This document shows, in pieces, positions 41,664 through 60,726 of a stretch of DNA of 64,000 nt. Under the pieces are notes generated by a model. The model was not told the origin of the DNA and did no database searches. It was given only the letters and a program-made list of their open reading frames with translations. The position numbers were made by a program, and so were the translations under genes. Position 1 is the stretch's first letter. Each line of letters opens with the position of its first letter. The DNA is from Brevibacterium renqingii (GTDB lineage: Bacteria; Actinomycetota; Actinomycetes; Actinomycetales; Brevibacteriaceae): NCBI RefSeq assembly GCF_017808105.1, contig NZ_JADBHF010000002.1:1-64000 (forward strand), read 5' to 3'.

Positions 41664-41730
41664 GTGCTCACGCTAGGACCGTCGTCCGCGCAGCGACAAG
41701 AGACCTCGGTGCCCAATGCAAACCTCCGCC

Positions 41731-43836: not shown

Positions 43837-43846
43837 TTCAACCTCC

Positions 43847-45127: not shown

Positions 45128-45366
45128 ACCTGCATCCCAACTTCGGCGACGGTCTTCCCCAAGAAGCCAAACAAGCGCAGGCGACTGCGCGCAATGAGGG
45201 CCGAGGCCTCATATTCGATCCCCGCGGTCCCGGCCTTGCGCCAGCCTTCCCGGTGCCTCTCAGACATCACCGCCTCGAGGGGGTCGAAGAGCTGTTGCAC
45301 CGCTGTGTCCAGGAGCTTCGTCCGCCAAGAGGGCCGGCGACCATAAGCCGACTCAGCAGAATCCAC
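45124..45366 (-). CDS. Hypothetical small protein coupled to the ATP-grasp gene
   Basis: Up to 80 residues from GTG 45366; an internal ATG (MSERHREGWRKAG) gives about 47. The sequence is helical and amphipathic with no recognised domain (WRTKLLDTAVQQLFDPLEAV). The ATGA overlap with the ATP-grasp gene and the protein-like composition favour a real gene; the ribosome site AAGAGGGG is very close to the GTG, which is a weakness. Confidence 0.45.
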   Translation of the reverse strand: MDSAESAYGRRPSWRTKLLDTAVQQLFDPLEAVMSERHREGWRKAGTAGIEYEASALIARSRLRLFGFLGKTVAEVGMQV

Positions 45367-45537
45367 AACCCCTCTTGAGAAGCAGCAGGAGCGGCTTCAT
45401 GTTGGGTTCAGAAGCCGAGGTCAACGCGGTTGAACGTGGAATCTCTCCACGACTGTCGAAGCACGACTGCCGAGGCGGGCAGAACCCGTCGTCGACAGAG
45501 GAAAGAGGAAAGGAGCACGGAGATGATCCATCGCCTG

Positions 45538-46500
45538 TCACAGGCCGAGGGCGTCGAGGGCGTCGATCGCCTCTCGGGCCGTCACGGCCAGCAGCGCCGG
45601 GTCCGGGCTCGAGGCGAAAGGATCGCCTCGCCGCAGCTCCTCGTGAGTCAGCGCCATATGGGGACCTTCGGGCGGGCCCCAGTTGAGGACGCGAGCGGGA
45701 CCGAAGATCACCACCGAGGAGCGTCCGAAGGCATTCGCCAGGTGAGCCGCCCCGGTATCGGCGCTGACGACGACGTCCGCGGCGGCGATGCTCGCACAGA
45801 ACTCGGCGAACGTCTGAGCACCGGCCGCGACGCGAAGACGGGAACCGTCTCTGCACAGCGGCCTGGTCTCCGCGATGAGCTGGGCGGCCTGCTGAGCTCG
45901 CGGTCGTTCGGCGCCGGAGCCCGTGAGCACGACGTCATGGCCGCGCCTCAGCAGTTCGACTCCGACGTCGACGAATCGTTCGATCGGCCACAGTCGGCTC
46001 ACCTGGGAGGCGCCGACGTGGACGACGGCAGCCGGGGAGGGCAGTGCGACCGGAAGCGCCGCCGGATCGATGCGCAGATCCTCGGCATCGGCCTCCACAC
46101 CGAAATGCGCGAGCATCTGCGTCCAGCGACGGCGCTCGTGCACGTCCTCGGCCCATTCGGGACCGCACCAGCCGGGAGCAGCATGGCCCCACCGCAGCCT
46201 CGCATCGAAGGATTCGAGCCAGAGGTGGCTGCTCGGACCGCGGCCGTGCAGATTGACCACGCAGCCCACGTCGAACACATCCGTTCGCTGATCCGGCGGA
46301 GTGCCGATGTCCTCGGGAGCGACCGGCAGGATCTCGTCGACGCATCCGATCGCGGCGATGAGAGGACGCAGGTACTCGGGGCAGGCGAGCACGAGCTCGG
46401 AGTCCGGGAAAGCCGTTCGCAGACCTCGCAGGGCGGGCACCGCGACGAGCAGATCGCCGATCCCGAGAGCGCGCAGCGCCAACACGACGTTCCTGGTCAT
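45538..46500 (-). CDS. Glycosyltransferase family 9 (heptosyltransferase-like), copy 1
   Basis: 320 residues. The N-terminal ALRALGIGDLLVAVPALRGL is the acceptor-side start of GT9, and the C-terminal donor site has SADTGAAHLANAFGRSSVV and FGPARVLNWGPP. AAVVHVGASQVSRLWPIERF is the linker strand before the second Rossmann fold. In Gram-negatives GT9 enzymes transfer heptose from ADP-heptose. This copy is transcribed away from the rest of the cluster and starts opposite the HAD phosphatase, whose coding frame begins in the same few bases. Confidence 0.88.
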   Translation of the reverse strand: MTRNVVLALRALGIGDLLVAVPALRGLRTAFPDSELVLACPEYLRPLIAAIGCVDEILPVAPEDIGTPPDQRTDVFDVGCVVNLHGRGPSSHLWLESFDARLRWGHAAPGWCGPEWAEDVHERRRWTQMLAHFGVEADAEDLRIDPAALPVALPSPAAVVHVGASQVSRLWPIERFVDVGVELLRRGHDVVLTGSGAERPRAQQAAQLIAETRPLCRDGSRLRVAAGAQTFAEFCASIAAADVVVSADTGAAHLANAFGRSSVVIFGPARVLNWGPPEGPHMALTHEELRRGDPFASSPDPALLAVTAREAIDALDALGL

Positions 46501-47109
46501 GGCCTCCGCCTTCCGTCCGCGATCCTCTTCGATCGTGACGATACCCTCATCCGCGATGTGCCGTACAACGGCGATCCCGATCGAGTCGTCGCAGCCGACA
46601 CGGCTGCTGAGGCTGTGGCTCTCGCCCGCGCTGCCGGAGTCCCCATCGGGGTCATCAGCAATCAGTCCGGCATCGGCCGCGGGCTCATCTCCGCCGACCA
46701 GCTGCACGCCGTCAACCGCCGGGTCGATGAGCTGCTCGGTCCCTTCGACGTGTGGCGCCACTGTCCCCACCTGCCCGAGGACGGGTGCCGGTGCAGGAAG
46801 CCGGCAGCGGGAATGCTGCTCTCGGCCGCAGAGGAACTCGATGCGCCCATCGCCGAGGCAGTGATGATCGGCGATATCGGAGCCGATGTCCAGGCTGCCC
46901 GCGCCGCCGGGTGCCGGGGCATCCTCGTGCCGACGCAGCGCACACTGCCCCAGGAGGTCGCCGCCGCCGAGACGGTCGCCGGCACACTGCTCGAGGCCGT
47001 GTGCGCCGCCCTCGGCCGGAGCGCGGAATCTGCTGGAGCCGGCGCGTCGGCCCATTCGGGGCTCGACTCTGATGCCGACTGCGAGTTGGTGGGAGGCGCG
47101 CCATGGTGA
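46498..47109 (+). CDS. HAD-IIIA phosphatase, GmhB-like (heptose bisphosphate phosphatase)
   Basis: About 200 residues. AILFDRDDTLIRDVPYNGDP holds the catalytic Asp-x-Asp (DRDD in place of the usual DRDG). VISNQSGIGRGLIS is motif II, CPHLPEDGCRCRKPAAGML includes the Cys/His zinc site typical of GmhB, and MIGDIGADVQAARAAG is motif IV. GmhB removes the C7 phosphate of heptose-1,7-bisphosphate. No ATG, GTG, TTG or CTG exists in frame for over 200 bases before the domain; the nearby ATG 46499 is in another frame. A frameshift in the first codons or a non-canonical start must be assumed, so the 5-prime boundary is uncertain. The 3-prime end overlaps the next GT9 gene by 7 bases. Confidence 0.75.
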   Translation, partial: HGLRLPSAILFDRDDTLIRDVPYNGDPDRVVAADTAAEAVALARAAGVPIGVISNQSGIGRGLISADQLHAVNRRVDELLGPFDVWRHCPHLPEDGCRCRKPAAGMLLSAAEELDAPIAEAVMIGDIGADVQAARAAGCRGILVPTQRTLPQEVAAAETVAGTLLEAVCAALGRSAESAGAGASAHSGLDSDADCELVGGAPW

Positions 47110-48221
47110 ACAAGCACGTCCTCGCCGTCCGCCTCGACAGCATGGGCGATCTACTCGTGACGAGTCCGGCCCTGCGCGCCATCGCCGCTGCCGACGAGGT
47201 CGAGAAGCTCACCTTGCTGTGCAGCCCCGCCGCAGCTTCCACCGCGCGCCTGCTGCCCGGGGTCGACGAGATCGAGACCTGGTCCTGCCCCTGGATCATC
47301 TCTCCCCCTCCGGCGGTCGAGGCCGAGGAGCTCCAGCGGCTCATCGACGTCCTCACGGTCGCCGATATCGACGAGGCGGTCATCTTCACCTCCTTCCACC
47401 AGTCCGCGCTGCCGACGGCGACGGTCCTCAGGCTGGCCGGGATCTCCCGGATCACCGGGGTCTCCGTCGACTATCCCGGAAGCCTCCTCGACGAGCGGAT
47501 CCGACCCGGGTCCGAACTGCCCGAGGATCTGCCCGAGGTCGAACGCGGGCTGGCGATCGCCGCCCGCGCCGGCTTCGCACTGCCCGACGACGATGACGGA
47601 CGCCCCCGAGTCGTCGGCGTCCGGGGAGAAGCGGCGCGCCAGTGCCCCGAGGAGACCCGGATGCTCAGGGGCGAGCGCCTCGTCGTCGTCCATCCGGGCG
47701 CGAGCGTTCCGGCCCGGCGCTGGTCGCCCGAACACATGCGCGAGACCGTCACCGCCCTCGCCGGGCAGGGATGGACCCTCGCCGTCACGGGCACACCCGA
47801 TGAGAGCCGGCTCACGGACTTCGTCGCCGGGACCGAGGGCATCGACCTCGGCGGACGGCTCGACGTCGCCGGCCTTGCGGACCTGCTGGCCGGGTGCGAA
47901 GCGGTGGTCGTCGGCAACACCGGACCGGCACATCTCGCGGCCGCTGTCGGCACCCCCGTCGTCAGCCTCTTCTCCCCCGTGGTGCCGCCTGTCCGCTGGC
48001 TTCCCTACGGCGTCGACGTGGAGATGCTCGGTGACCAGAGCGCCGCCTGCCGCGGCACACGTGCCAGGGACTGCCCGGTGCCCGGGCACCCCTGCCTGAA
48101 TTCCGTCAGCGCCGAGGACGCGGTCACCGCCCTCGACCGGCTGCTGGCCCGCCGGCCGGCCCCTCCGGAAGACAAGGAATCTTTCCCTAGCTCAGCATAC
48201 GAAGTCAGGAGCAGCTCATGA
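47103..48221 (+). CDS. Glycosyltransferase family 9 (heptosyltransferase-like), copy 2
   Basis: 372 residues. VLAVRLDSMGDLLVTSPALR is the GT9 start with the acceptor-binding GD. VVVHPGASVPARRWSPEHM and VVVGNTGPAHLAAAVGTPVV form the nucleotide-sugar site. The C-terminal region has several cysteines (around AACRGTRARDCPVPGHPC). Cytoplasmic, probably acting on a growing lipid- or protein-bound glycan. Overlaps the HAD gene at its start, and the GT4 gene (ATGA, 48218-48221) at its end. Confidence 0.88.
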   Translation: MVNKHVLAVRLDSMGDLLVTSPALRAIAAADEVEKLTLLCSPAAASTARLLPGVDEIETWSCPWIISPPPAVEAEELQRLIDVLTVADIDEAVIFTSFHQSALPTATVLRLAGISRITGVSVDYPGSLLDERIRPGSELPEDLPEVERGLAIAARAGFALPDDDDGRPRVVGVRGEAARQCPEETRMLRGERLVVVHPGASVPARRWSPEHMRETVTALAGQGWTLAVTGTPDESRLTDFVAGTEGIDLGGRLDVAGLADLLAGCEAVVVGNTGPAHLAAAVGTPVVSLFSPVVPPVRWLPYGVDVEMLGDQSAACRGTRARDCPVPGHPCLNSVSAEDAVTALDRLLARRPAPPEDKESFPSSAYEVRSSS

Positions 48222-49261
48222 GAATTCTGCTGTGGCACGTCCACGGTTCGTGGACGGACGCCTTCGTCAGAGGAGACCACGACTACCTCCTCCCCACCGA
48301 TCAGGAGCGCTCCGCCTGGGGCTTGGGCCGCGGCGGCCGCGAATGGCCGAACGCCCGTGAGGTCGCCATCGACGCCCTGAGCGCCGAAGACTTCGACCTC
48401 GTCATCGCCCAGCGCCCGGAGGAACTCGACGAGATCCGCAATCGCTTCGGGATCACTCCCGGAGTCGATGTGCCCACGATCTTCGTCGAGCACAACACTC
48501 CCCGGGCGACGGTGCCCGACAGTCCGCACCCGCTGGCCGGTCAGCAGGACGTCCCCATCGCCCACGTCACCCACTTCAACGCCCTGATGTGGGACTGCGG
48601 GGACACGCCCGCGGCCGTCATCGAGCACGGCATCAACGATCCGGGGCCGCTCTACACGGGCCGGCTCCGACGCCTGGCGTTCGTCGGCAACGAACCGGTG
48701 CGGCGCCGCCGGGTGCTCGGCACGGACATCCTCGAGGAGGTCTCCTCCCATGTTCCCGTCGATGCCTTCGGCATCGGCACCGAGAAGCTGCTCGACTCCC
48801 AGCACGTGCCGAGCGGTCTCGGCAAGGTCGATGACAGTCCGATCACTCCGTACGGAGATCTGCCGCCGCAGGTCCTCCACCCGCTCGTCGCCGAGCGCCG
48901 CGCCTACCTCCACCCGGTGCGCTGGACCTCCTTGGGCCTGTCCCTGCTCGAGGCCATGCACATGGGCATGCCGGTGCTCGCCCTAGCGACGACCGAGGCG
49001 ATCCGGGCCGTTCCTCCGGAAGCGGGGATGCTCACCACCGAACCGCGCGAGCTCATCGACATGGCCGTCCAACTCATCGACGACCCCGAGCTCGCCGCCG
49101 ACATGGGCCGGCAGGCGCGAGCGCACGCTCTCGCCCACTACGGCCTCGACAGGTTCCTGCGCGACTGGGACGAGCTGCTCGAGGCGGTGGTCTCCCGCGG
49201 GCCCTCCGCCGCCCGGTCCTGCGCGCACCGCGACCCGACCCGCCACATCCAGACCGTCTGA
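48218..49261 (+). CDS. Glycosyltransferase, GT4-like (GT-B fold)
   Basis: 347 residues. It opens MRILLWHVHGSWTDAFVRGD. The donor-binding half has HPVRWTSLGLSLLEAMHMGM, equivalent to the EAMACG motif of GT4, and ends LAHYGLDRFLRDWDEL. The N-terminal half has HVTHFNALMWDCGDT. The donor is unknown; the location suggests a heptose-containing glycan. It is ATGA-coupled to the upstream GT9 gene and followed 13 bases later by the GT4-GmhA fusion. Confidence 0.82.
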   Translation: MRILLWHVHGSWTDAFVRGDHDYLLPTDQERSAWGLGRGGREWPNAREVAIDALSAEDFDLVIAQRPEELDEIRNRFGITPGVDVPTIFVEHNTPRATVPDSPHPLAGQQDVPIAHVTHFNALMWDCGDTPAAVIEHGINDPGPLYTGRLRRLAFVGNEPVRRRRVLGTDILEEVSSHVPVDAFGIGTEKLLDSQHVPSGLGKVDDSPITPYGDLPPQVLHPLVAERRAYLHPVRWTSLGLSLLEAMHMGMPVLALATTEAIRAVPPEAGMLTTEPRELIDMAVQLIDDPELAADMGRQARAHALAHYGLDRFLRDWDELLEAVVSRGPSAARSCAHRDPTRHIQTV

Positions 49262-49274
49262 CAAGGAGAGACCA

Positions 49275-51209
49275 ATGCGCATCTCGATGATCTCGGAACA
49301 TGCCAGCCCCCTGGCGCCGCTGGGCAGCGTCGATGCCGGCGGACAGAACGTCCACGTCGACAAGCTCGCCGCAGAGCTCACCGCCCGCGGTCACGACGTG
49401 ACGGTCTTCACCCGTCGCGACTCACCCGACCCCGCTGATGTCGTCGTCATGGACTCCGGCACCCGTGTCGTCCACATCTCCACCGGCGAGGACAGCCACG
49501 TTCCCAAGGACGAGCTCCTCGACCACATGCCGTCCCTCGGCCGGGGAATCGCCGAATACTGGCACAGCTATGCCGAGGCCCGACCCGATGTCGTCCATTC
49601 CCACTTCTGGATGTCGGCACTGGCCGGCCGGGCCGCCTTGGAGGCCGCTCACCTGCCGGACGTGCCGCTCGTGCACACCTATCATGCGCTGGGCACGGTC
49701 AAGCGCCGCTATCAGGGCAGTGCCGACACCAGCCCCGGCGGCCGCATCCGCCTCGAGCGCACGATCGGCGAGGACGCGGCGCGGATCATCTCCACCTGTG
49801 AGGACGAGAAGGGCGAACTGGCGAGGATGGGCATCGACACGAGCAAGGTCGATGTCGTCCCGTGCGGCGTCGACCTCGGCGAGTTCACGCCCGGCGACGG
49901 TCCCACCGACCCGCCGCGGATAGTGTGTCTCGGTCGCCTCGTGCCCCGCAAGGGCATCGACCTCGTCATCCGGGGACTTGCGAAGCTGCATCGCGCCGGC
50001 CGGACCGATGTCGTCCTCGACGTCATCGGCGGCAGCGCCGACGGCGGCGAATTCGCCGCCGATCCCGAAGTCAGGCGCCTGCGGGACCTCGCCGCCGAAC
50101 TCGGCGTCGAGGAGCACGTCCGCCTCCGCGGGCACATGGACCGCTCGGACATCCCAGCCGCGGTCCGCGGCGCCTCCATCGTCGCCTGCACCCCCTGGTA
50201 CGAGCCTTTCGGCATCGTCCCGCTCGAGGCGATGGCCTGTGGGGTTCCGGTCATCGCGGCCGCGGTGGGCGGACTGCAGAACACCGTGGTCGACGGCACC
50301 ACCGGACTGCTCATCCCGCCCGGCGATTCGGGGGCCTTCGCCGCGGCCGCCGAGCGCGTGCTCTCCTCCCCGGACTTCGCCCGCTCCCTCGGTGCGGCCG
50401 GCATCGAACGCGCGCGGCAGGGCTACACCTGGGCCCGCGTCGCCGAGGCGACCGAGGCCAGCTACGAACAGGCCCGCGGTGAGCAGGAGACGGGCGGCGA
50501 CGAACTCTTCGCCTCCCGCCGCCGCTCGACGGCGCCCGCCGGCAGCGACGTCCTCGAAGCGCAGCTGTCCGGAGTGGAATGCGCCGTGGACTCCCTGCGC
50601 GAACAGCTGCCGACGATGCGGCGGTGGAGCGAAGCGCTCGCGCAGACGCTGGCCGCCGGCGGGACCCTCTTCTGTGCCGGCAACGGCGGCTCCGCCGCCG
50701 AAGCGCAGCATCTCAGCGCCGAGCTCGTCGGCCGATTCTCCGGCGAGCGCCCGGCATACTCGTCCATCGCGCTGAGCACGGACTCCTCGGCGGTGACCGC
50801 GATCAGCAATGACTACGGATTCGACAGCGTGTTCTCACGCCAGATCGAAGCGCATGCCAAACCGGGCGACATCCTCATCCTGCTGAGCACGAGCGGTCGC
50901 AGCCCGAACCTCGTCCGTGCAGCCGAGGCGGCGAACCGCATCGGCGCGACGACCTGGGCGCTGACCGGCCCCGGGACGAGTCCGCTGACGCAGGTCTGCG
51001 ACTCCTCGGTGAGGATCGACGCAGCCGCACCCCATGTGCAGGAGGCCCACCTCATGGCCGTCCACTGCCTGTGCGCGGCATTCGACGACAACGTCGGCAG
51101 ACTCGCCGCGGCGCTGCCGGAGCCGGCGGCGGGCGTCACTCCCGCTCGGCCCGCGAGTCCACCGCTCACCGGCCTGCGCCCGACGGCCGCAGTCGGCGCC
51201 CGACTCTGA
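49275..51209 (+). CDS. Fusion of GT4 glycosyltransferase and GmhA-like phosphoheptose isomerase
   Basis: 644 residues. Residues 1-405 are a complete GT4 retaining glycosyltransferase: GSVDAGGQNVHVDKLAAEL at the start, VVHSHFWMSALAG, RIVCLGRLVPRKGIDLVIRG and PWYEPFGIVPLEAMACGVPV. After a linker (about 405-435), a SIS-domain isomerase has FCAGNGGSAAEAQHLSAELV (about 466-485), ALSTDSSAVTAISNDYGFDS and STSGRSPN, the pattern of GmhA, which isomerises sedoheptulose-7-phosphate to heptose-7-phosphate. Both halves look intact. A frame break was excluded by the continuous open frame. This links heptose entry and sugar transfer in one chain. AAGGAG precedes ATG 49275. Confidence 0.88.
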   Translation: MRISMISEHASPLAPLGSVDAGGQNVHVDKLAAELTARGHDVTVFTRRDSPDPADVVVMDSGTRVVHISTGEDSHVPKDELLDHMPSLGRGIAEYWHSYAEARPDVVHSHFWMSALAGRAALEAAHLPDVPLVHTYHALGTVKRRYQGSADTSPGGRIRLERTIGEDAARIISTCEDEKGELARMGIDTSKVDVVPCGVDLGEFTPGDGPTDPPRIVCLGRLVPRKGIDLVIRGLAKLHRAGRTDVVLDVIGGSADGGEFAADPEVRRLRDLAAELGVEEHVRLRGHMDRSDIPAAVRGASIVACTPWYEPFGIVPLEAMACGVPVIAAAVGGLQNTVVDGTTGLLIPPGDSGAFAAAAERVLSSPDFARSLGAAGIERARQGYTWARVAEATEASYEQARGEQETGGDELFASRRRSTAPAGSDVLEAQLSGVECAVDSLREQLPTMRRWSEALAQTLAAGGTLFCAGNGGSAAEAQHLSAELVGRFSGERPAYSSIALSTDSSAVTAISNDYGFDSVFSRQIEAHAKPGDILILLSTSGRSPNLVRAAEAANRIGATTWALTGPGTSPLTQVCDSSVRIDAAAPHVQEAHLMAVHCLCAAFDDNVGRLAAALPEPAAGVTPARPASPPLTGLRPTAAVGARL

Positions 51210-51222
51210 GAGAGGACGCACC

Positions 51223-52623
51223 ATGAAGATCACAGTTGTCGGGGACACCCTCCTCGACGCAGACGTCCACGGCAGCGCCCGACGGCTGCTGCCGGACAAT
51301 CCGGTCCCCGTCGTCGATGTCGACCACACCGATCATCGCCCCGGCGGGGCCGGCCTGGCGACCCTGCTGCTGGCCGCGGCCGGGCACGAGGTCACCCTCG
51401 TGACGGTGCTCGGCAACGACGAGAACGCCGAGCGCATCGAGGCCGCACTGCCCTCGGTCGACGTCGTCGCCGCCCGCCTCGACGCCCCGACTCCCGTCAA
51501 ACGACGGCTGTTGGCCGAAGGGCAGCTCGTCACCCGCATGGACGAGAACTGCTCTGAGGCCGGAGTCGAGGTCACCGAGGAGATGCTCGCGTGCGTCCGC
51601 AGCGCCGAGGCCGTGCTCGTGTCCGACTACGGTCGGCACCTGAGCGAGGACACCCGGCTCCGTGCCGCGCTCGAAGAGACGGCGGCGAAGGCTCCCGTCG
51701 TCTGGGATCCGCACCCGGCGGGCGGCCCGCCCGTTGCGGGTGCTGCGGCAGTGACCCCGAACTTCGCGGAGGCGCTGACGTTGACCGAGAATCCCAACGG
51801 ATCGGAGGCGAGCGTGCCCGAAGCTCACACTGCGGCCGAGACGCTCCTCGAGCGGTGGCAGTCACAGGCGGTCGTCGTCACCCTCGGCGCCAGAGGCGCG
51901 CTCACGCTCGAAGCCGGTGCCGGTGCGCGCTTCTCTCCCACGCTGGGCCCCACCACCGGCGACGCGTGCGGGGCCGGTGACTGCTTCGCAGGCTGTCTCA
52001 CAGCCGGGCTGGCGGCCGGCACCGATCTCATGGACGCCGTCGACCGCGCCATCGCGGAGACGGGTGAGTTCATCGTCCGCGGAGGCGTCGATGCACTCAC
52101 TCGAGCCCAGGAGTCCGAGGCCGTCCTGCTCGGGACTCACGAGGAGCCGGGCACCGCGAGCCCGGCCGTGCAGCGAGCGCGGGCCGTGCGGGCCCGCGGA
52201 GGCACCGTCGTCGCGACCGGCGGCTGCTTCGACCTCCTGCACGCCGGCCACGTCCGGGCGCTGAGTGCGGCGCGGAGGATGGGCGACACGCTCATCGTCC
52301 TGCTCAACTCCGATGAGTCCGTCCGCCGGCTCAAGGGCGCCGAGCGCCCGATCGTCGGCTCGGGCGAACGCGCCGAGCTGCTGCGCGCCCTCGACTGCGT
52401 CGACGACGTCCTCGTCTTCGAAGAGGACACCCCCGTGTCCGCCCTCGAGCAGATCCGGCCCGATATCTGGGTCAAGAGCGATGACTACCGGCATGCCGAC
52501 CTCGAAGAGGCGGAGGTCCTCACCCGCTGGGAGGGGCGCATCGTCACCGTGCCCTTCGTCCCCATGCATTCGACCTCCAACCTCGCCGGCGCGCTGCGCC
52601 GACTCGACTCTTCGGCGGTGTGA
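51223..52623 (+). CDS. hldE: HldE-like bifunctional heptose-7-P kinase / heptose-1-P nucleotidyltransferase
   Basis: 466 residues, matching E. coli HldE (477). The PfkB-type kinase domain (about 1-305) opens ITVVGDTLLDADVHGSARRL, has GGAGLATLLLAAAGHE, and the catalytic GACGAGDCFAG-type loop with GAGD at 250-253. The C-terminal nucleotidyltransferase (about 330-466) has GGCFDLLHAGHVRAL with an intact HxGH (340-343) and SDDYRHADL near the end. Together they phosphorylate heptose-7-phosphate at C1 and, after GmhB, add AMP to give ADP-D-heptose. GAGAGAGGA precedes the ATG, 13 bases after the GT4-GmhA stop. Confidence 0.87.
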   Translation: MKITVVGDTLLDADVHGSARRLLPDNPVPVVDVDHTDHRPGGAGLATLLLAAAGHEVTLVTVLGNDENAERIEAALPSVDVVAARLDAPTPVKRRLLAEGQLVTRMDENCSEAGVEVTEEMLACVRSAEAVLVSDYGRHLSEDTRLRAALEETAAKAPVVWDPHPAGGPPVAGAAAVTPNFAEALTLTENPNGSEASVPEAHTAAETLLERWQSQAVVVTLGARGALTLEAGAGARFSPTLGPTTGDACGAGDCFAGCLTAGLAAGTDLMDAVDRAIAETGEFIVRGGVDALTRAQESEAVLLGTHEEPGTASPAVQRARAVRARGGTVVATGGCFDLLHAGHVRALSAARRMGDTLIVLLNSDESVRRLKGAERPIVGSGERAELLRALDCVDDVLVFEEDTPVSALEQIRPDIWVKSDDYRHADLEEAEVLTRWEGRIVTVPFVPMHSTSNLAGALRRLDSSAV

Positions 52624-52682
52624 GCGCAGCTCCTCACCGTCGTCGCACGCTCGCAGACTCACTGCAGAAAGGAATCCCACCC

Positions 52683-53372
52683 ATGAATCTCGAGAACAGC
52701 AGGATCGTCGTCACCGGAGGCGGCTCCGGCCTGGGAGCCGCCTGCACCGAGGCCATCGCCGAGGCGGGGGGCGAGCCGATCGTCTTCGACCTCGCCCCCG
52801 TCGCAGGCAGCCACCGCAGCGTGAGCGTCGACGTCACCGACCGACAGTCGGTGGAGAGCGCCGTCGCCGAGGTGGCCGAAGCCGGCGGCGGGATCGACGG
52901 AGTCGTCACGGCCGCCGGGATCGACATTCCCGGTGACCTCGACGAAGTCGACCCGGACCAGTGGGAGAAGGTCATCGGCGTCAATCTGCTCGGAACCGTG
53001 TCGACGGTCCGTGCCCTGCTGCCCCACCTCGAGGCCAACCGCGGCCGCGTGGTCACGGTGTGCTCGACGCTGGGGCTGCGCGGAGCGGGCGGAGCGACCG
53101 CCTATGCCGCCTCGAAGTTCGGCGTCCGCGGCTTCAGCCAGGCTCTGGCCGCGGAGATGGTCGGCCGGGTCGGGGTCACGAACCTCATCCCCGGCGGAAT
53201 GAACACGAACTTCTTCGAGGGGCGGGACGAACGCTTCGCGCCCGGCGACCGGAGCCGTCTCAACGATCCCCGCGACGTCGCCCGCACCGTCGTCTTCGCA
53301 CTCACCCAGCCGCCGCGGGTCGAGATCCGCGAAGTCCTCGTCGCCCACGAGGGTGAGGACTCATGGCCGTGA
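52683..53372 (+). CDS. Short-chain dehydrogenase/reductase in the heptose locus
   Basis: 229 residues, classical SDR. RIVVTGGGSGLGAACTEAI is the cofactor loop, CSTLGLRGAGGATAYAASKF holds the Ser-Tyr-Lys triad, and NLIPGGMNTNFFEG the substrate loop. It is too short for the extended SDR epimerase HldD and lacks its pattern, so it should not be called the heptose epimerase. It may reduce or oxidise a sugar intermediate. AAAGGAATCC precedes the ATG. It converges on GT9 copy 3, with 8 bases between stops. Confidence 0.85.
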   Translation: MNLENSRIVVTGGGSGLGAACTEAIAEAGGEPIVFDLAPVAGSHRSVSVDVTDRQSVESAVAEVAEAGGGIDGVVTAAGIDIPGDLDEVDPDQWEKVIGVNLLGTVSTVRALLPHLEANRGRVVTVCSTLGLRGAGGATAYAASKFGVRGFSQALAAEMVGRVGVTNLIPGGMNTNFFEGRDERFAPGDRSRLNDPRDVARTVVFALTQPPRVEIREVLVAHEGEDSWP

Positions 53373-53380
53373 TCTCGTTC

Positions 53381-54454
53381 TCAGTGTCCTGCGGCGAGCG
53401 CACGGATCTCGTCGTACACGCTCTCCGGGGCCACCTCGGCGACAAGGGAGGGATCATGCGTGCAGCGTTCGGCCGTCCAGCCGACCTGGGTCACATCGAC
53501 CCCGCAGACCGTGCACCGGGTCACCCAGGACATGAGAACCCGGTGCCGGCGGCGGCTCAGCGGGGCGGCGTTGAGCGCGTTGCCCACCCAGTAGATGCCC
53601 ACGGTCTTGGCCCCGGCGGCCGCCGCCAGGTGCCGGGGACCGCTGTCGTTGCCGACGACCACCTCGGCGCAGGTGAAGGCTCCGAGCAGTTCGGCGAGGC
53701 TGAGGCGACCGGCATGCGAGTCCACCCTGTCGCCGAGTTCGGGGGCGAGCCCGGCGCGTGCGGCATCGACGATGACCTGGGCGTCCTCGACGTCCTCGAC
53801 AGCACCGACGAGAGCGACGCGCCAGCCGTCCTCCACGGCGGCGACGGTCAGCTGGGCGAAATGCTCGACCGGCCAGCGCCGGCGGGGATCGGTGGCGCCA
53901 GGGTGGACGATGAGGAGGGGCTGCGGTCCCGTCCCGATGATCCGCTCGGCGGCAGCGGTCTCCGCCGCCTCGACGGCGATGACGGGTTCGATCCGAGCAG
54001 TGCTCGCCCCGGCCAGGCCGACGACTTCGAGGGCCCGCAGCATCTCATGCTGGTAGTACACGTACGGCAGTGTGCGCTCGAGGTCGGGCGCATCGGGAGT
54101 CTTCGTCCCGATGGTGTGCTCCGCCCCGAGACGCAGGAGGAACGGGTTCGAGTTCTTGCCGCCGCCGTGCAGCTGCACGGCGAGGCCGAAGCCGCGTGCG
54201 CGCATCTGCGCGAAGAACGCCTCCTGTTCCTCGGACCCGTCGAGCAGCGGCTCGGCCACGCAGACCTCGGAGATCGGACCCGAACGACCGTCCAGCAGAC
54301 GGCGGTGGAGTTCGCTGCCGATGAGGGTGATCGAGGCATGCGGATAGGCGGCCTGCAGAGCCGTGAGCGCCGGGTAGGCGAACATCAGATCGCCGAGTCC
54401 CCCGCCGCGGACGACCGCGACCCGCTCGACATCCGGAAACACATCCTCGACCAT
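53381..54454 (-). CDS. Glycosyltransferase family 9 (heptosyltransferase-like), copy 3
   Basis: 357 residues from ATG 54454, preceded by GGAG 8 bases upstream; ATGs further up (54484, 54493) are alternatives. RVAVVRGGGLGDLMFAYPAL is the GT9 start. LLIVHPGATDPRRRWPVEHF and VVVGNDSGPRHLAAAAGAKT form the donor site. The C-terminal part has CTVCGVDV and other cysteines. It is transcribed against the surrounding genes. With copies 1 and 2 it makes three GT9 enzymes in 9 kb, enough for several heptose-like residues. Confidence 0.87.
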   Translation of the reverse strand: MVEDVFPDVERVAVVRGGGLGDLMFAYPALTALQAAYPHASITLIGSELHRRLLDGRSGPISEVCVAEPLLDGSEEQEAFFAQMRARGFGLAVQLHGGGKNSNPFLLRLGAEHTIGTKTPDAPDLERTLPYVYYQHEMLRALEVVGLAGASTARIEPVIAVEAAETAAAERIIGTGPQPLLIVHPGATDPRRRWPVEHFAQLTVAAVEDGWRVALVGAVEDVEDAQVIVDAARAGLAPELGDRVDSHAGRLSLAELLGAFTCAEVVVGNDSGPRHLAAAAGAKTVGIYWVGNALNAAPLSRRRHRVLMSWVTRCTVCGVDVTQVGWTAERCTHDPSLVAEVAPESVYDEIRALAAGH

Positions 54455-54516
54455 CGCCGCCACTCCGTTTCCATCACATTCCATTCGCACCACTCACACA
54501 GCGCTAGGAGGATCTC

Positions 54517-55917
54517 ATGCCTGACGTGACGACCATCGACACCGACATCGTCTCGACGATCACTATACAGAACCCCGCCGACGGTTCGACTGTCGGCGAG
54601 GTCGACTGCGATACGCCCAGCGCCGTCGAAGCAGCGGTCGCGGAAGCGGCCGCAGCCCAGGCGGACTGGGAGGCCCTCGGCGCCGAGGAGCGCGCCCGAC
54701 TGCTCTGCCTCATCGCCGACGCTCTCGCCGAGGCCGCGGACGAACTGGCCGAGCTCAACCGGCAGGAGACGGGCAAGACCCTCGAGGACTCCCACGGCGG
54801 CATCGAGGCGGCGATCGGCACCGTCCGCCAGTACGCCGAGCTCGGCCCGGTCCACCGCGGCCACAGTCTGCGCGGCGACCGCCTCGCGGCGGACTACACG
54901 CGGCACCGGGCCCACGGCGTCGCCGCGATCATCACCCCGTGGAACGACCCTGTGGCGATCGCGATGGGGCTCATCTCAGCGGCGCTGATCAGCGGGAACA
55001 CTGTGGTCCACAAGCCGAGCGAACGGTGTCCCCACCTCGGCCTGCGGCTCGGGCAGATCTGCGAGGAGGTGCTCCCGGACGGCGTGATGAGCACCGTCAG
55101 CGGCGGCCAGAGTGTCGGCCGCGTCCTCGTCGGAAACGAGGAGGTCTCCCTCTGCGCCCATGTCGGTTCGAGCAGCGCCGGCCTCGACATCCACCTGCGC
55201 GGCGCAGCCCATGGGGCACATGTCATCCGGGAGAACGGAGGCAACGATCCGCTCATCGTCGACTCCGGGGTCGACCCGCAGTGGGCGGCCCAGCAGGCGG
55301 CACTGGGGTCCTTCGCCAACGCCGGGCAGATCTGCACGTCCGTGGAGCGGATCTTCGTCCATCGCGACATCTCCGAGGACTTCGTCTCGGCCCTCGTCGC
55401 AGAAGCCGAACGGGTCAACGGCGAACATGCCCCGCAGCCCCTCGTCGACCGCAACCATCGCCGCACCGTCCACTCCCTCGTCAGCGAATCCGTCAACGCG
55501 GGAGCTCAAGCTCTCACCGGCGGACAGGTCCCGGACGGGCCGGGTGCCCACTACCCGGCGACGGTCCTCCTCGGATGCCGACCGGGCATGCCCGTGATCG
55601 ACCAGGAGGTGTTCGGACCGGTGGCCCCGGTGTGCATCGCCGAGGACTTCGAGGAGGCGCTCGGCCTCGCGCGCTCGGGCTCCTTCGGACTCGCAGCGAC
55701 CGTCCTCACCTCCGATATGGGGCACACACTCGACGCCGTCGATCGTCTGCGCGTGGGAACGGTGAAGATCAACGAGGTGTTCGGCGGCGCACCAGGCGGC
55801 TCGGCCGAACCGCGCGGGGAGAGCGGCTCCGGCTTCGGCTTCGGTCCCGAACTCCTCGACGAGATGTCCACGACCTCGGTCGTCCACATCGCTCCGGCAG
55901 GAGGGCAGCGACGATGA
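54517..55917 (+). CDS. Aldehyde dehydrogenase family protein
   Basis: 466 residues. The nucleophile is Cys in FANAGQICTSVERIF. The general-base region reads IRENGGNDPLIVD instead of the usual LELGGK; the Glu is kept. AAIITPWNDPVAIAMGLISA and NTVVHKPSERCPHLGL match the cofactor site, and VIDQEVFGPVAPV the C-terminal EIFGPV motif. It oxidises an aldehyde with NAD(P). Its location between heptose-locus genes, ATGA-coupled to the second HldE-like gene, suggests a sugar-derived aldehyde, but that is inference. AGGAGGA precedes ATG 54517. Confidence 0.87.
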   Translation: MPDVTTIDTDIVSTITIQNPADGSTVGEVDCDTPSAVEAAVAEAAAAQADWEALGAEERARLLCLIADALAEAADELAELNRQETGKTLEDSHGGIEAAIGTVRQYAELGPVHRGHSLRGDRLAADYTRHRAHGVAAIITPWNDPVAIAMGLISAALISGNTVVHKPSERCPHLGLRLGQICEEVLPDGVMSTVSGGQSVGRVLVGNEEVSLCAHVGSSSAGLDIHLRGAAHGAHVIRENGGNDPLIVDSGVDPQWAAQQAALGSFANAGQICTSVERIFVHRDISEDFVSALVAEAERVNGEHAPQPLVDRNHRRTVHSLVSESVNAGAQALTGGQVPDGPGAHYPATVLLGCRPGMPVIDQEVFGPVAPVCIAEDFEEALGLARSGSFGLAATVLTSDMGHTLDAVDRLRVGTVKINEVFGGAPGGSAEPRGESGSGFGFGPELLDEMSTTSVVHIAPAGGQRR

Positions 55918-57356
55918 GAAACGAACAGCCCCTGATCACTCCGGACGGCAGTCGAGCGCCCGAACCGGCACGGACGGATTCGGCGGCTCCGGGTCCGCCG
56001 GCACTCGGCCGCGAGGAGGTCCAGGCCATCGTCTCCGCCGCGCCGACGGTCACCGTCATCGGCGACATCATGCTCGACTGCTGGCTCCACGGACGCTCCT
56101 CGCGTCTGGCCCGCGAGGCTCCCGTCGCCGTCGTCGAACAGGGCAGCGAGGTCCTCTCCCCGGGCGGGGCGGCGAACACGGCGATGAATCTCGCCGCGCT
56201 GGGCGCCCGTGTCAGAATGGTCGGCGTCATCGGTGGCGACGAGTCCGGCAGGACCGTCAAGGACCTCCTCGTCGATGCCGATGTCGATGTCAGCGGAGTC
56301 CTCACCTCCGAGCAGGTCGCGACGACGAAGAAGACCCGCATCGTCGTCGACGATCACATCCTCCTCCGACTCGACTGCCTCGATGACAAAGACAGCGCCG
56401 AGGGCGTGAGCGAACCCTGGCTGGAGGAGCTGTGCTCGCGGGCTCGCCATGCCCTCGACGGAAGCGCGGCGCTCGTCATCGCCGACTACGGCGGGGCCAT
56501 CCACTCCGCGCAGCTGCCGGAGCGGCTGGCCCGCGAAGCGCGTCCTGCCCTCACCGTCGTCGATGCGCACGAACCCGAGCAGTGGAAGCTGTTGCGTCCG
56601 GACGTCGTCACGCCCAATGCTGACGAGGCCGAACGCCTCGTCGATGCGTCGTTCCGCGATGATCCCCGCCGGGTGGAGCTCGCCCAGCGCTTCGCCCCGG
56701 CGGTGCGCGAGGCAACGAACGCCGAGGCCGCGGTGATCACCCTCGACCGGGACGGCTCCGTGTCCGTCGACGGCACCGATGACGCGCACCTGACCACGGC
56801 GCATCCGGTGCCCGAACGCCAGGCCAGCGGGGCCGGGGACACCTTCGTGGCGGGCCTGACCATGGCGCTGGTCGCCGGTCTGCGACTGGCCCTGGCCGCC
56901 GAGTTCGCGCAGATGGCCGCCGATGTGGCCATCCGCGGGGAGGGCACCTCCCTGTGCACCGGCGACGACCTGCTGCAGCTCGTGGGCGGCCCTCGCCGCA
57001 CGGTGCTGGCCCTCGGTCATTTCGATCCGCTCAGCAGCGAGGATCGGACGTTCCTCACCTCGGCGCGCCGCCTCGGCGACTATCTCGTCGTCGCGGTCGA
57101 TCGGGACGCCGGGGAGGACGGTGCGGCGCTGCGCTCGAGGATGCAGCTGCTCAATGCCCATCCGAGCGTCGATCTCGTCGCCGAGTACGCGTTCTCCGCC
57201 TCCGAGGTCATCGAGTCGCTGCGCCCGGACGTCATCGCCTTCGACTCGAGTGGGACCGGCCCGCAGATCGCCCTGCCCCAGACCGGAGGCATCCCACTCG
57301 TCGACGTCTCAAGCACGAGGGGGCCGGACCCTCTGAGGACCGGGGAGCCCTCATGA
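55914..57356 (+). CDS. Second HldE-like protein: intact kinase, degenerate nucleotidyltransferase domain
   Basis: 480 residues. After a Pro-rich N-terminal extension (about 35 residues) the PfkB kinase domain has TVIGDIMLDCWLHGRSSRLA, LSPGGAANTAMNLAALGARV and GAGDTF with GAGD at 306-309, all expected for a heptose-phosphate-type kinase. The C-terminal domain keeps the fold (VLALGHFDPL near 368, RRLGDYLVVAVDRDAG), but the catalytic HxGH is replaced by SSED (374-377). The sister protein at 51223 has HAGH at the same place, so this domain cannot be a normal nucleotidyltransferase. It may be structural or regulatory. Coupled to the ALDH gene (ATGA, 55914-55917) and the GT2 gene (ATGA, 57353-57356). 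Confidence 0.82.
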   Translation: MRNEQPLITPDGSRAPEPARTDSAAPGPPALGREEVQAIVSAAPTVTVIGDIMLDCWLHGRSSRLAREAPVAVVEQGSEVLSPGGAANTAMNLAALGARVRMVGVIGGDESGRTVKDLLVDADVDVSGVLTSEQVATTKKTRIVVDDHILLRLDCLDDKDSAEGVSEPWLEELCSRARHALDGSAALVIADYGGAIHSAQLPERLAREARPALTVVDAHEPEQWKLLRPDVVTPNADEAERLVDASFRDDPRRVELAQRFAPAVREATNAEAAVITLDRDGSVSVDGTDDAHLTTAHPVPERQASGAGDTFVAGLTMALVAGLRLALAAEFAQMAADVAIRGEGTSLCTGDDLLQLVGGPRRTVLALGHFDPLSSEDRTFLTSARRLGDYLVVAVDRDAGEDGAALRSRMQLLNAHPSVDLVAEYAFSASEVIESLRPDVIAFDSSGTGPQIALPQTGGIPLVDVSSTRGPDPLRTGEPS

Positions 57357-58255
57357 CGGTCACTCTCCCTCGAGGTCCCGGTGCCGGCAGCGAGGCGATG
57401 AACGCGCAGGCTCGCCGCTGCGATGAATGGGGGCGGGTGCAGGATGAGCGGAGGTCGGCGGCACGGATCGATGTGCTCATCCCCACCTGCGACCGCCCCA
57501 CGGAACTCGCCGTCACCCTGTCAGGACTCGCGGCGCAGCTCGATGCGAGCTTCGACGTCGTCATCAGCGATCAGTCTCAGCAGCCGGTGGCCGACGAAAG
57601 GGGCGTGCGCGCCATGATCGACCTCCTGCACGCGCAGGGACGACACGTCGACGTCGACCGCAACCTGCCCAGGCGCGGCATGGCCCAGCAGCGTCATCAC
57701 CTGGTGATGCTCAGCAGCGCCGAGCACCTCCTGTGCCTCGATGACGACGTCTGGCTCGAGCCCGGGACATTGGCCCGCATGGATTCTGCGCTGACCTCCG
57801 CCGGATGCGGGTTCATCGGAGCCGCCGTCCAGGGACTGTCCTTCCTCGATGACCGCCGTCCGGAGGAATGGACAGGTTTCGAGGAGTGGGAGGAACGGGT
57901 GCGTCCGGAGACTCCGCGCAGCAGCGGGGAGTCCGGCAGATGGAAGCTGCACAACGCCGCCAACCTGTCCCATATCGCAGTCGAGAAGGGCTTCAGCATC
58001 GCCGACCCTCGTCTCTACCACGTCGACTGGGTCGGCGGCTGTGTGCTCTTCGACAGGGCCAAACTCCTCGATTCGGGCGGATTCGGCTTTTGGGACCAGC
58101 TCCCCGTCGACCATGTGGGAGAGGACGTCTACTGCCAGCGGCGCGTAATGTCCCGCTACGGCGGAGCCGGCCTCATCCCCAGCGGCGCCGTGCACCTCGA
58201 ATCTCCAACGACTCTGACCGAGAGGCGATGCGAGGTGAGCGAATACCTCGCATGA
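57353..58255 (+). CDS. Glycosyltransferase family 2
   Basis: 300 residues. AARIDVLIPTCDRPTELAV starts the GT-A fold, LLCLDDDVWLEPG carries the metal-binding DxD, and VDWVGGCVLFDR with FGFWDQLPVDHVGEDVY holds the acceptor/catalytic ED motif. The N-terminal 35 residues are charged and variable. It is the last gene of the plus-strand group of the heptose locus. The GT-A fold distinguishes it from the GT9 and GT4 enzymes nearby. Confidence 0.87.
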   Translation: MTVTLPRGPGAGSEAMNAQARRCDEWGRVQDERRSAARIDVLIPTCDRPTELAVTLSGLAAQLDASFDVVISDQSQQPVADERGVRAMIDLLHAQGRHVDVDRNLPRRGMAQQRHHLVMLSSAEHLLCLDDDVWLEPGTLARMDSALTSAGCGFIGAAVQGLSFLDDRRPEEWTGFEEWEERVRPETPRSSGESGRWKLHNAANLSHIAVEKGFSIADPRLYHVDWVGGCVLFDRAKLLDSGGFGFWDQLPVDHVGEDVYCQRRVMSRYGGAGLIPSGAVHLESPTTLTERRCEVSEYLA

Positions 58256-58398
58256 GCGCCTCGGCTCGGACGCACCACTAGACGAAGCGATCGACTTTGT
58301 AAAGGCCCTTTCAGGTCCGAATCACCCTCATTAGCGTCAATGGCATCACAGGCGCCCGTACCGGCTCCCTGAACTGCAAGCAATCGGAGGATGACACC

Positions 58399-59535
58399 AT
58401 GGCTACTCCCATTCAGCTGGCGCGCAGCTACGCCAGGTCGTATGAGACGTCGTCCCGCAAGGACAAGGGCACGATCCTCGACACACTCACCGCGGCGACC
58501 GGCTGGACGCGCGATCATGCGCGCCACCAGCTCCGCAGCCAGATCCACCAGATCAAGGCCGGAGTCGCCCTCGACGCGGTCGTCGATCGTCGCCGCCTCA
58601 AGCCGAAGAAGTTCTCCCCGCCCGCCCGACGGGCTCTCGAACTCGTCTGGAAGTGCTCCGGCCGCCCCTGCGGCAAGTACCTCGAGGCCGCGATGTCCGA
58701 CTGCATCGATTCGCTGGAACGGCACGGCCACCTCAAAGAAGGACGGCGCGGATACTCGTCCTCCGTGCGCGACGAGCTCCTCGACATCTCAGCGGCCACG
58801 ATAGATCGGTACCTGCGCTCCGCCAAGGCGGGAGACCACGATGAATCATGGCTGACCGGCACCGGAACGGGGATGCGTGCATCACTGCCGCGGCAGCGCA
58901 TGCGCTCGCTGCTCGAACCCGAACCCGGGTACTTCATCGTCGAACTGCTCATGGTCACGACACCGACCGGTGAAAACTGCGTCACCGTGACATTCACCGA
59001 TGTCGAGATCGGGTGGGTGCACACGAAGACCTTCACCCCGGGCATGCCCGTCGTCGACATGCTCACTGACATGGTGCGCGCAGTCCCCTATATCGTCACC
59101 GGAATCCTGTTGGCTCCGCCGCTGCCCGCCGGCGACCTCGAGACGTGGGCGAGTGAGAACCTCATCGAGTTCCACAGCATGAGCGACCTCAGGCAGGGCT
59201 CGCGTGTGCCCGACTGGACGTTCAGCGATCTCGACCTCCCTCTGCGCACGCCGAGCGACCTCGGCGCCGCGATCGACAGGGTCAACGAGCTGTGGGCGGC
59301 ACTGGGCGACCGTCTCAACTTCTTCATGCCCGTGAAGAACCCCGTGGGATGGCGTCTCACACCCGCCGGAGAGCGCCGGCGCGAATACGACCGCCCCGAC
59401 ACACCGGTCTCCCGACTCTTCAGCTCCGGAATCCTCTGCCCCGAGCAGACTCGGGAGATGCGCGAGAAGAGTCACGAGCTCGACATCGCCGCACTGACCG
59501 CGCGCATCGAAGAGCTGAAGACGACCCTGCGCTGA
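58399..59535 (+). CDS. Transposase-derived protein (ISNCY/integrase-like) with eroded catalytic core
   Basis: 378 residues. The N-terminus (SYARSYETSSRKDKGTILDT, LTAATGWTRDHARHQL) and LLDISAATIDRYLRSAK match the helix-turn-helix parts of ISNCY-type transposases, and the C-terminus (LGDRLNFFMPVKNPVGWRLT, YDRPDTPVSRLFSSG) matches their tail. In the integrase core the first catalytic Asp, expected in a VEIDTVxH-type strand, is replaced in FIVELLMVTT (179-188), and the DNGxEF motif is unrecognisable (ASENLIEFHS). TDVEIGW is kept. No terminal inverted repeats or target duplication were found. A good ribosome site (CGGAGGATGACACC) precedes the ATG, so it looks maintained, perhaps as a DNA-binding protein. 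Confidence 0.78.
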   Translation: MATPIQLARSYARSYETSSRKDKGTILDTLTAATGWTRDHARHQLRSQIHQIKAGVALDAVVDRRRLKPKKFSPPARRALELVWKCSGRPCGKYLEAAMSDCIDSLERHGHLKEGRRGYSSSVRDELLDISAATIDRYLRSAKAGDHDESWLTGTGTGMRASLPRQRMRSLLEPEPGYFIVELLMVTTPTGENCVTVTFTDVEIGWVHTKTFTPGMPVVDMLTDMVRAVPYIVTGILLAPPLPAGDLETWASENLIEFHSMSDLRQGSRVPDWTFSDLDLPLRTPSDLGAAIDRVNELWAALGDRLNFFMPVKNPVGWRLTPAGERRREYDRPDTPVSRLFSSGILCPEQTREMREKSHELDIAALTARIEELKTTLR

Positions 59536-59583
59536 GACGATTCTGTTCCGCCGGGAGGACGTGGCGGAGGGGAGGCGAGTGCA

Positions 59584-60300: not shown

Positions 60301-60305
60301 GTGAG

Positions 60306-60692
60306 ATGACAGGAACGTCTCCCGACAACCCTGCTTTCGGCGAACCCGAAGACCGGGGTCCCGATGACGACCTCCGACAGCAGCTGGCTAGTGCCGTCAG
60401 ATACTGGCGCATGCCTGTCAAGGACATCTGGTTGCGCTATTTCAGCCTCGGCGGAAGTGTGGGCGAGTGTGAGCTCGACGCCTACATCAACTCGTCCTAT
60501 ACGATCTCACCCCTGCAGCACGACATCCTCGCCCAGGCGATCAACGAGCTCATCGACGCCCGACCCGAACCGCCGCGCGCACCCTACAGCAGCGATGCAC
60601 TCGACCGCAGCGACGGCCCGAGCAAGGCGAGGAACGATCAGAGCCCGGGTACGGAGTCCGTTGACGATGATCCCCGCGCAGACGAATATTGA
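60306..60692 (+). CDS. Hypothetical actinobacterial protein next to ANTAR genes
   Basis: 128 residues. A helical core of about 65 residues (LRQQLASAVRYWRMPVKDIW, LRYFSLGGSVGECELDAYIN and LQHDILAQAINELIDARP) looks conserved and folded; the C-terminal 45 residues are charged and disordered. It recalls small proteins found beside GAF-ANTAR genes in other actinobacteria. Function is unknown. The ATG at 60306 lies 5 bases after the ANTAR stop, so translation is probably coupled. Confidence 0.65.
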   Translation: MTGTSPDNPAFGEPEDRGPDDDLRQQLASAVRYWRMPVKDIWLRYFSLGGSVGECELDAYINSSYTISPLQHDILAQAINELIDARPEPPRAPYSSDALDRSDGPSKARNDQSPGTESVDDDPRADEY

Positions 60693-60726
60693 AGGAACAG
60701 ATCACAGAGCCGGCACTTGAGACACG

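Follow-up and report, generated by a model that had tools for sequence, protein, structure and literature searches.

A predicted heptose-glycan locus of Brevibacterium renqingii related to the Streptomyces cwg operon

The window analysed here is a stretch of 64,000 nucleotides from Brevibacterium renqingii (contig NZ_JADBHF010000002.1, assembly GCF_017808105.1), which carries at 45.5-58.3 kb a locus of 11 genes encoding relatives of the heptose enzymes GmhA, HldE and GmhB together with several glycosyltransferases (GTs). Judged by its sequence, this locus is the Brevibacterium form of the cwg-type operon, and we consider it quite probable that it makes and transfers a nucleoside diphosphate (NDP)-D-glycero-heptose by the mechanism proposed below. 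A first-pass annotation had listed GmhA-, GmhB- and HldE-like proteins, three GT9 proteins, a GT4, a GT2, a short-chain dehydrogenase (SDR) and an aldehyde dehydrogenase (ALDH) within 13 kb, and Pfam and NCBIfam models find all of them encoded there. Its further suggestion of an undescribed system has to be given up, the locus being a homologue of the operon sco6179-6190 of S. coelicolor and thus of a known kind.

Relation to the Streptomyces cwg operon

The name cwg, for cell wall glycan, reportedly goes back to Hong et al. 2002. The available parts of two later papers that cite Hong et al. 2002 (PMC6767563, PMC5839063) describe cwg of S. coelicolor as a 12-gene operon, sco6179-6190, putatively for a cell-wall glycan and partly dependent on sigma-E. 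The cwg promoter sequence, located 147 bp from the start codon, is printed in the accessible part of PMC6767563, and we searched its 29 published bases in 295 genomes of one genus, Streptomyces by inference. It was found with at most one mismatch in four genomes, one match being exact (genome G1038, locus L223), and the reversed control gave 0 matches. The regions around three of the four matches were compared (L223, exact; L225, one mismatch; L224). In L223 and L225 the promoter is followed by genes for an epimerase/dehydratase, a carbamoyltransferase, GT2, GmhB, GT9b, GTd, GT4, SIS, HldE1, GT9a, GT2 and GT2, and the gene caller's first start in L225 is 147 bases beyond the promoter. In gene count and order both correspond to the 12-gene cwg operon, with SIS and HldE1 occupying positions 8 and 9 in keeping with the published names (SCO6186, phosphoheptose isomerase; SCO6187, bifunctional synthase/transferase, in the accessible part of PMC5839063). 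The third region, L224 (genome G930), is Streptomyces-like and keeps the promoter with one mismatch, behind which there are just GT2x, a short GmhB and GT4, the rest of the operon being largely gone.

Seven units of the window, GmhB, GT9b, GTd, GT4, SIS, HldE1 and GT9a, match genes 4-10 of L223 with 43-60% identity. The 11 genes are as follows.

45538-46500, minus strand: GT9a, heptosyltransferase-like GT9 protein (PF01075, 63.7 bits; 43% identity to L223 gene 10; cwgJ by position)
46522-47109, plus strand: GmhB-type HAD-IIIA phosphatase (PRK08942, 114 bits, cut-off 178; 60% to L223 gene 4; cwgD by position)
47103-48221, plus strand: GT9b, heptosyltransferase-like GT9 protein (PF01075, 79.6 bits; 52% to L223 gene 5; cwgE by position)
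48218-49261, plus strand: GTd, GT4/GT1-type glycosyltransferase (PF13692, 34.6 bits; 51% to L223 gene 6; cwgF by position)
49275-51209, plus strand: GT4, MshA-like but under the MshA cut-off, fused to a GmhA-type SIS isomerase domain (PF00534/PF13439 and SIS_2; cwgG and cwgH by position, genes 7 and 8)
51223-52623, plus strand: HldE1, putative heptose 7-phosphate kinase/heptose 1-phosphate nucleotidyltransferase (PRK11316, 272 bits; 44% to L223 gene 9; cwgI by position)
52683-53372, plus strand: SDR, not HldD (PF00106, 135 bits)
53381-54493, minus strand: GT9c, third heptosyltransferase-like GT9 protein, second module (PF01075, 87.8 bits)
54517-55917, plus strand: ALDH, second module (PF00171, 358 bits)
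55914-57356, plus strand: HldE2, intact PfkB kinase and a nucleotidyltransferase domain without catalytic motifs (TIGR02198, 192 bits; TIGR02199, 27.8 bits)
57353-58255 (start set by the gene caller), plus strand: GT2 glycosyltransferase, second module (PF00535, 31.8 bits, in a scan begun at 57395)

The ordered core GmhB-GT9-GTd-GT4-SIS-HldE-GT9 is common to the window and to L223 and L225, except that GT9a of the window is moved and reversed. The epimerase/dehydratase and the carbamoyltransferase of the cwg head are absent from the window locus, and the SDR has no counterpart among the called genes of L223 and L225. The matches of gene order and identity therefore characterize the window locus as a cwg-type locus without the head and tail genes and with an extra SDR and a second module. 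Since the head genes are missing, we count it as a variant and not as the cwg operon proper.

The 11 genes lie almost without gaps, neighbours being spaced by -7 to 59 bases with the starts as set here, and within the window the G+C content of the locus is 70.3% compared with 65.2% in the left and 64.0% in the right flank. The whole 3.64-Mb genome has no GT9 match other than GT9a, GT9b and GT9c. At the left end, a minus-strand open reading frame (ORF) for 505 residues spans 45538-47055, its GT9 part being confined to 45538-46500 and its upstream part running antisense to gmhB. There is no ATG, GTG or TTG near the expected start of gmhB (46498-46530); the ATC at 46522 is a possible start and lies just 21 bases from the divergent GT9a start. 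Ten loci were inspected at this point and a match was obtained in six: the codon is ATC in the window, L112 and L118, GTG in L114 and L116, and a normal ATG in L120.

Enzyme families and their divergence

Domains were called with Pfam and NCBIfam models, and the proteins were compared with solved chains. The first-pass annotation had named a heptose gene set, and the families are right, but the proteins fall below the cut-offs of the NCBIfam heptose models and are divergent relatives. Full-length HldE1 scores 272 bits against a cut-off of 521 and its nucleotidyltransferase domain 166 against 181.5, while the SIS domain reaches about 153.5-154 bits with the GmhA model TIGR00441 (cut-off 209). 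The GT9 proteins stay under the cut-offs of the NCBIfam heptosyltransferase models (WaaC/F/Q), and all three are well over that of PF01075. GT4 was rejected as a true MshA, as its score of about 256-257 bits with TIGR03449 is under the cut-off of 462.5, though this is still the best match in the genome.

Among solved chains, the SIS domain is nearest to phosphoheptose isomerase 2xbl and both kinase domains to heptose 7-phosphate kinase 4e84. GmhB is nearest to the putative hydrolase 3l8h, with the heptose bisphosphate phosphatase 4pnh a close second, and the nucleotidyltransferase domain of HldE1 to the putative cytidylyltransferase 5x9q, which we take to be Burkholderia HldC. By score, HldE is a nearer relative of the kinase than ribokinase and PfkB are, and the SIS domain is closer to GmhA than to DiaA. 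As regards a GDP-heptose pathway with HddA/HddC-type enzymes, the models that score best within the locus are HldE-type. HldE1 has intact GAGD and FDLLHAGH motifs. The motifs for isomerase, kinase, phosphatase and nucleotidyltransferase are all encoded, as judged for HldE1 by motif and, in the case of SIS and GmhB, from alignments with solved relatives at the residues that we presume to be catalytic. ADP, named in the first-pass annotation as the nucleotide of the sugar donor, is an inference.

In the kinase tree, the locus kinase groups with E. coli HldE and not with RbsK/PfkB (support 92/86), the deep placement being weak and the E. coli branches long, whereas for the isomerase, nearer to GmhA by score, the SIS tree puts E. 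coli GmhA and DiaA together and cannot choose between them. No HldD was found above the cut-off in the genome, the best TIGR02197 match reaching 123.6 bits (cut-off 274.6), and a lipopolysaccharide (LPS) inner-core heptose system was rejected on this ground, other LPS genes not being part of the search. Nor does PF02543, the carbamoyltransferase family, match anywhere in the genome. Five locus proteins have 19-residue hydropathy peaks of 1.76-1.95, above the usual mark of 1.6, in enzymes of usually soluble families. HldE1 is also matched by 37 phage records, none over 80% of its length, and the 15 listed cover the nucleotidyltransferase end only. Taken together, the scores, the solved relatives and the kinase tree uphold the view of a heptose-type pathway in a Gram-positive actinobacterium, and enzymes for NDP-heptose outside the Gram-negatives are already in print (PMC11573728, PMC11461863).

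Loss of the nucleotidyltransferase motifs in HldE2

The HldE-like activity that had been annotated is represented by two proteins, the second of which is without the catalytic motifs of the nucleotidyltransferase. HldE2 of the window has intact kinase motifs, GGAANTA and GAGDTF, and reads LGHFDPLSSEDR where NGCFDVLHRGHT is expected. The FDxxHxGH motif is present in 62 of 67 HldE2 longer than 400 residues, and the five without it come from the window, B. celere (twice) and the metagenome bin RM44 (twice), i.e., from three distinct Brevibacterium genomes; a fourth close relative, G446, is uninformative here, being interrupted by a contig end. Once identical copies are removed, each of the three is seen to have different letters of its own in place of NGCFDVLHRGHT and KGGDY. 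They share 38-54% identity in the nucleotidyltransferase and 60-81% in the kinase, compared with 68-87% and 57-74%, respectively, among five HldE2 that keep the motif (four Brevibacterium relatives and L120). In these three genomes, HldE2 therefore probably assists HldE1 as a kinase only. Most simply, both HldE would act in one path, in which the second nucleotidyltransferase became unnecessary.

Distribution and two architectures

We made the search across Brevibacterium and other actinobacteria that the first-pass annotation had recommended. A scan with a GTd alignment returned at least 592 stretches, at least 581 of them confirmed, and the 80 named loci are the best 80 of these at least 581, not an even sample, some of them ending at contig ends. 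Their gene maps come from an ad hoc gene caller, and the counts of GmhB and GT2 are lower bounds. By title, all 80 are actinobacterial, and the nearest named species by identity are Brevibacterium celere and B. album. An HldE nucleotidyltransferase over the cut-off is encoded in 46 of 396 genomes of the phylum, relatives of the window HldE1 at E <= 1e-40 in 63 of 396 genomes of the order, and a full-length HldE1 (54-100% identity) in 8 of 57 genomes of the genus, the window's own included. GT9 was present in 8/8 HldE1-bearing and 0/9 HldE1-lacking genomes of the genus (Fisher p 4e-5, relatedness ignored), a comparison covering 17 of the 57 genomes, with 9 of the 49 lacking HldE1 taken. GTd, GT4, SIS, HldE1 and GT9 occur together in 58 of the 80 loci, and SIS, HldE1 and GmhB in 46. 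Chance clustering was rejected, since the gene order recurs across the phylum.

The loci fall into two architectures. HldE2 of more than 300 residues, the only size counted in this test, is found in 48 loci and a carbamoyltransferase in 15, with neither in 17 and both in none (Fisher p 9e-8, relatedness again ignored). Two carbamoyltransferase loci, L189 and L214, have a short ORF labelled HldE2 (160 and 154 codons), which may be a split HldE1. The carbamoyltransferase type occurs in Streptomyces (L131, a plasmid locus), Amycolatopsis, Planobispora, mycobacteria-like genomes and others, and the twin-HldE type, with GT9c-ALDH-HldE2-GT2, in Micrococcaceae, Microbacteriaceae, Brevibacterium and some Pseudonocardiaceae. 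The HldE1 proteins of the two architectures cluster in a single clade (99/97) when 42 chosen rows are placed in a tree; HldE2 is separate from it, in a clade (99/96) that also includes one protein labelled HldE1, that of L047.

Possible stress regulation and neighbouring genes

A sigma-B/F-family gene is found in 27 of the 80 loci, 26 times within two genes of GT9a, GmhB or GT9b, and of nine f2/f5-family genomes, which encode two to three region-3 sigmas apiece, eight carry such a sigma at the locus or no more than about 2 kb from it. L045, L046 and L055, whose genomes we presume from their neighbouring genes to be mycobacteria-like, have a sigma-F-like gene a few genes from a carbamoyltransferase-type locus. 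No SigB/F-like promoter pattern was found at 41000-61000 of the window, where sigma-E-like sites were not sought. Upstream of the epimerase of four other loci, the sigma-E-like pattern gave one loose match each in L131, L044 and L046 and none in L040. According to the accessible parts of the respective papers, vancomycin induces cwg, partly via sigE (PMC6767563), and salt induces cwgA though not sigE (PMC13011467). A Frankia paper reports a heptosyltransferase gene that is unique to salt-tolerant strains and upregulated under salt (PMC5563000).

Three genes flank the locus.

41731-43944, minus strand: peptidase S15/CocE-type hydrolase beside the ATP-grasp gene, possibly associated (via the L136 homologue, which matches PF02129)
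43847-45127, minus strand: ATP-grasp protein, possibly associated (PF13535)
59584-60300, plus strand: GAF-ANTAR regulator, flanking (PF13185 and PF03861)

The ATP-grasp gene is present in 7/8 HldE1-bearing and 1/49 HldE1-lacking genomes of the genus (Fisher p 2e-7, relatedness ignored); in G449 it lies about 200 kb from the heptose locus. Of the 80 named loci, 7 have a member of the PF02129 family nearby, those of Amycolatopsis and Actinokineospora among them. Genes of the GAF-ANTAR family also stand beside L114, L117, L123, L126 and the plasmid locus L131 of Streptomyces, yet just 1 of the 80 named loci has such a neighbour. Between the locus and this regulator, 58399-59535 encodes a protein of 378 residues without a Pfam or NCBIfam match, which adjoins the locus in B. 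celere and RM44 too and whose start, as a mere impression of ours, recalls transposases.

Proposed pathway and alternative explanations

We propose that the SIS domain would convert sedoheptulose 7-phosphate to heptose 7-phosphate, which the HldE1 kinase, aided by the HldE2 kinase, would turn into the 1,7-bisphosphate; GmhB would take off the 7-phosphate, and the resulting heptose 1-phosphate would be converted by the HldE1 nucleotidyltransferase to NDP-D-glycero-heptose. Because no HldD scores above the cut-off in the genome, the NDP-heptose is predicted to stay in the D,D form. GT9a, GT9b and GT9c would then add heptoses to a primer that GT4, GTd and GT2 would start, and SDR and ALDH may oxidise a sugar or a side product; a chain built in the cytoplasm could be used in the envelope or in general stress. 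The sequence itself shows the gene content and order, the homology to the cwg-type operon, the catalytic motifs of HldE1 and the loss of those of the HldE2 nucleotidyltransferase, whereas the activities, the identity of the sugar, the order of transfers and a stress role here are predictions. Our favoured guess for the predicted product is a surface glycan. In the literature searched, where subscription journals are largely missing, no structure of the cwg product is named in the accessible parts of the sources, and there is no recognisable report of heptose in Brevibacterium.

Several observations weigh against this proposal. All curated heptose-enzyme models (GmhA, HldE, GmhB) score under their cut-offs. 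The asparagine of GGAxN is missing in 92/94 HldE1, while HldE2 and the solved heptokinase 4e84 have it; the nucleotidyltransferase of the window HldE1 reads KSDDY for KGGDY, as do its three nearest relatives; and it has His at the STTR5 position, where 80/94 sequences, again including the three nearest relatives, have Arg, the residue tied to NTP (nucleoside triphosphate) promiscuity (PMC11573728, PMC11461863). With these three changes, the substrate or the nucleotide may have shifted. Position 4 of the L223 and L225 operons encodes a GmhB phosphatase, but SCO6182/cwgD was published as a putative dehydratase (accessible part of PMC5839063). The link to sigma factors is uneven (21/48 HldE2 loci versus 1/15 carbamoyltransferase loci), and in the genome of the window and in two other Brevibacterium the one region-3 sigma present lies far away from the locus. 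No exporter, flippase, polymerase or priming enzyme was found among the genes of the window or the 12 genes of L223, the rest of the genome not having been searched, and their lack at the locus sits ill with a wall polymer. Finally, the B. celere locus is without GT9c, and two further GT9 are on another contig.

A soluble product is also possible. It could be a cytoplasmic or secreted oligosaccharide or small glycoside, such as a stress protectant or an antibiotic-like compound, with the MshA-like GT4 starting on a small acceptor, and we regard this as somewhat unlikely. All 11 genes match enzyme families that we presume to be usually soluble, and the best named model for GT4 is MshA, albeit under its cut-off. 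The carbamoyltransferase type has a NodU-like carbamoyltransferase and an epimerase/dehydratase, a combination reminiscent of natural-product tailoring. Moreover, the antibiotic septacidin holds a heptose from the same pathway (PMC11461863). However, the vancomycin-induced, partly sigma-E-dependent expression of cwg, as far as the accessible parts of the sources report it, points to the envelope, the wide actinobacterial spread is unlike that of most antibiotic clusters, and the hydropathy peaks in five proteins leave room for membrane contact. Protein heptosylation, in which the GTs would modify a surface protein, has a precedent in an E. coli protein heptosylated by a dedicated heptosyltransferase (PMC11461863), but among the ranks reported, none of the locus GTs hit a model for protein glycosylation, and we judge it highly improbable.

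Another question is which sugar is made. The divergent HldE-like proteins could act on a hexose or pentose phosphate, as the low scores and the altered GGAGL and KSDDY motifs might indicate, and bleomycin clusters use GT9- and RfaE-like genes for hexoses. This is quite improbable in our estimate: heptose enzymes are the best or second-best solved relatives of SIS, of both HldE kinase domains and of GmhB, SIS, HldE1 and GmhB recur together in more than half of the named loci, and the kinase groups with E. coli HldE over RbsK/PfkB, if on long branches. It is also conceivable, if unlikely, that HldE1 and HldE2 once fed two NDP-sugars and that the sub-group of the window lost the second sugar, leaving HldE2 as a leftover or regulatory kinase. 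The separate clades of HldE1 and HldE2 would fit this, as would the position of HldE2 with its own ALDH, GT2 and often GT9c, the occurrence of an HldE and a GT2 outside the core locus in L047 and, in L052, beside GT9b and GTd, and the missing GT9c of B. celere. Yet ALDH (69-70% identity), GT2 (67-69%, in 2/3 loci), the kinase half of HldE2 (60-61%) and GT9c (64-65%, in 2/3 loci) have stayed similar in the window and its nearest relatives, a conservation suggesting continued production of their sugar.

Implications and comparison with known systems

The envelope-stress response of Streptomyces is known to act on the cwg operon. The comparison yields a precise hypothesis for it, an NDP-heptose glycan, together with a map of two architectures, named relatives (Brevibacterium celere, Arthrobacter and S. 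coelicolor) and, in HldE2, a domain loss that is an experiment of nature. If these Gram-positives do make heptose, they would also contain immune agonists of the ALPK1 type, as can be inferred from PMC11573728. On a broader scale, Actinobacteria and Burkholderiales might have in common an ancient system for heptose oligosaccharides that is under stress control and has no relation to LPS. The twin-HldE type would then be a distinct chemotype in which a second HldE, a GT9 and an ALDH replace carbamoylation, and HldE2 in the sub-group of the window would be only a kinase feeding the HldE1 nucleotidyltransferase. We put this forward tentatively, as an idea that could well prove wrong.

With the cwg operon of S. 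coelicolor, as represented by L223, the window shares the order GmhB, GT9b, GTd, GT4, SIS and HldE1, and together with GT9a the identity of 43-60%. It differs in lacking the epimerase/dehydratase, the carbamoyltransferase, GT2x and GT2y, in the fusion of GT4 to SIS, in GT9a standing reversed at the other end, in the additional SDR and second module GT9c-ALDH-HldE2-GT2, and in the lost nucleotidyltransferase motifs of HldE2. For the most part, the twin-HldE loci of Arthrobacter, Sinomonas, Curtobacterium and Microbacterium agree with the window in both modules and in how these are arranged, but their HldE2 keep the nucleotidyltransferase motif (62/67 long HldE2, repeats counted), and a sigma-B/F gene is often adjacent (21/48 HldE2 loci). 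The plasmid loci HAD-GT9-carbamoyltransferase-GT-GT9-GTd of Burkholderia and Paraburkholderia share homologous GTs and a HAD phosphatase with the window and resemble the carbamoyltransferase-type actinobacterial loci in their carbamoyltransferase, whereas no SIS or HldE is annotated in the 29-kb stretches examined. The Gram-negative ADP-heptose pathway of LPS (GmhA, HldE, GmhB, HldD, WaaC/F/Q) has the isomerase, kinase/nucleotidyltransferase, phosphatase and GT9 families in common with the window, which differs from it in scores under the cut-offs, in having no HldD above the cut-off in the genome and in GT9 proteins that fall under the WaaC/F/Q cut-offs.

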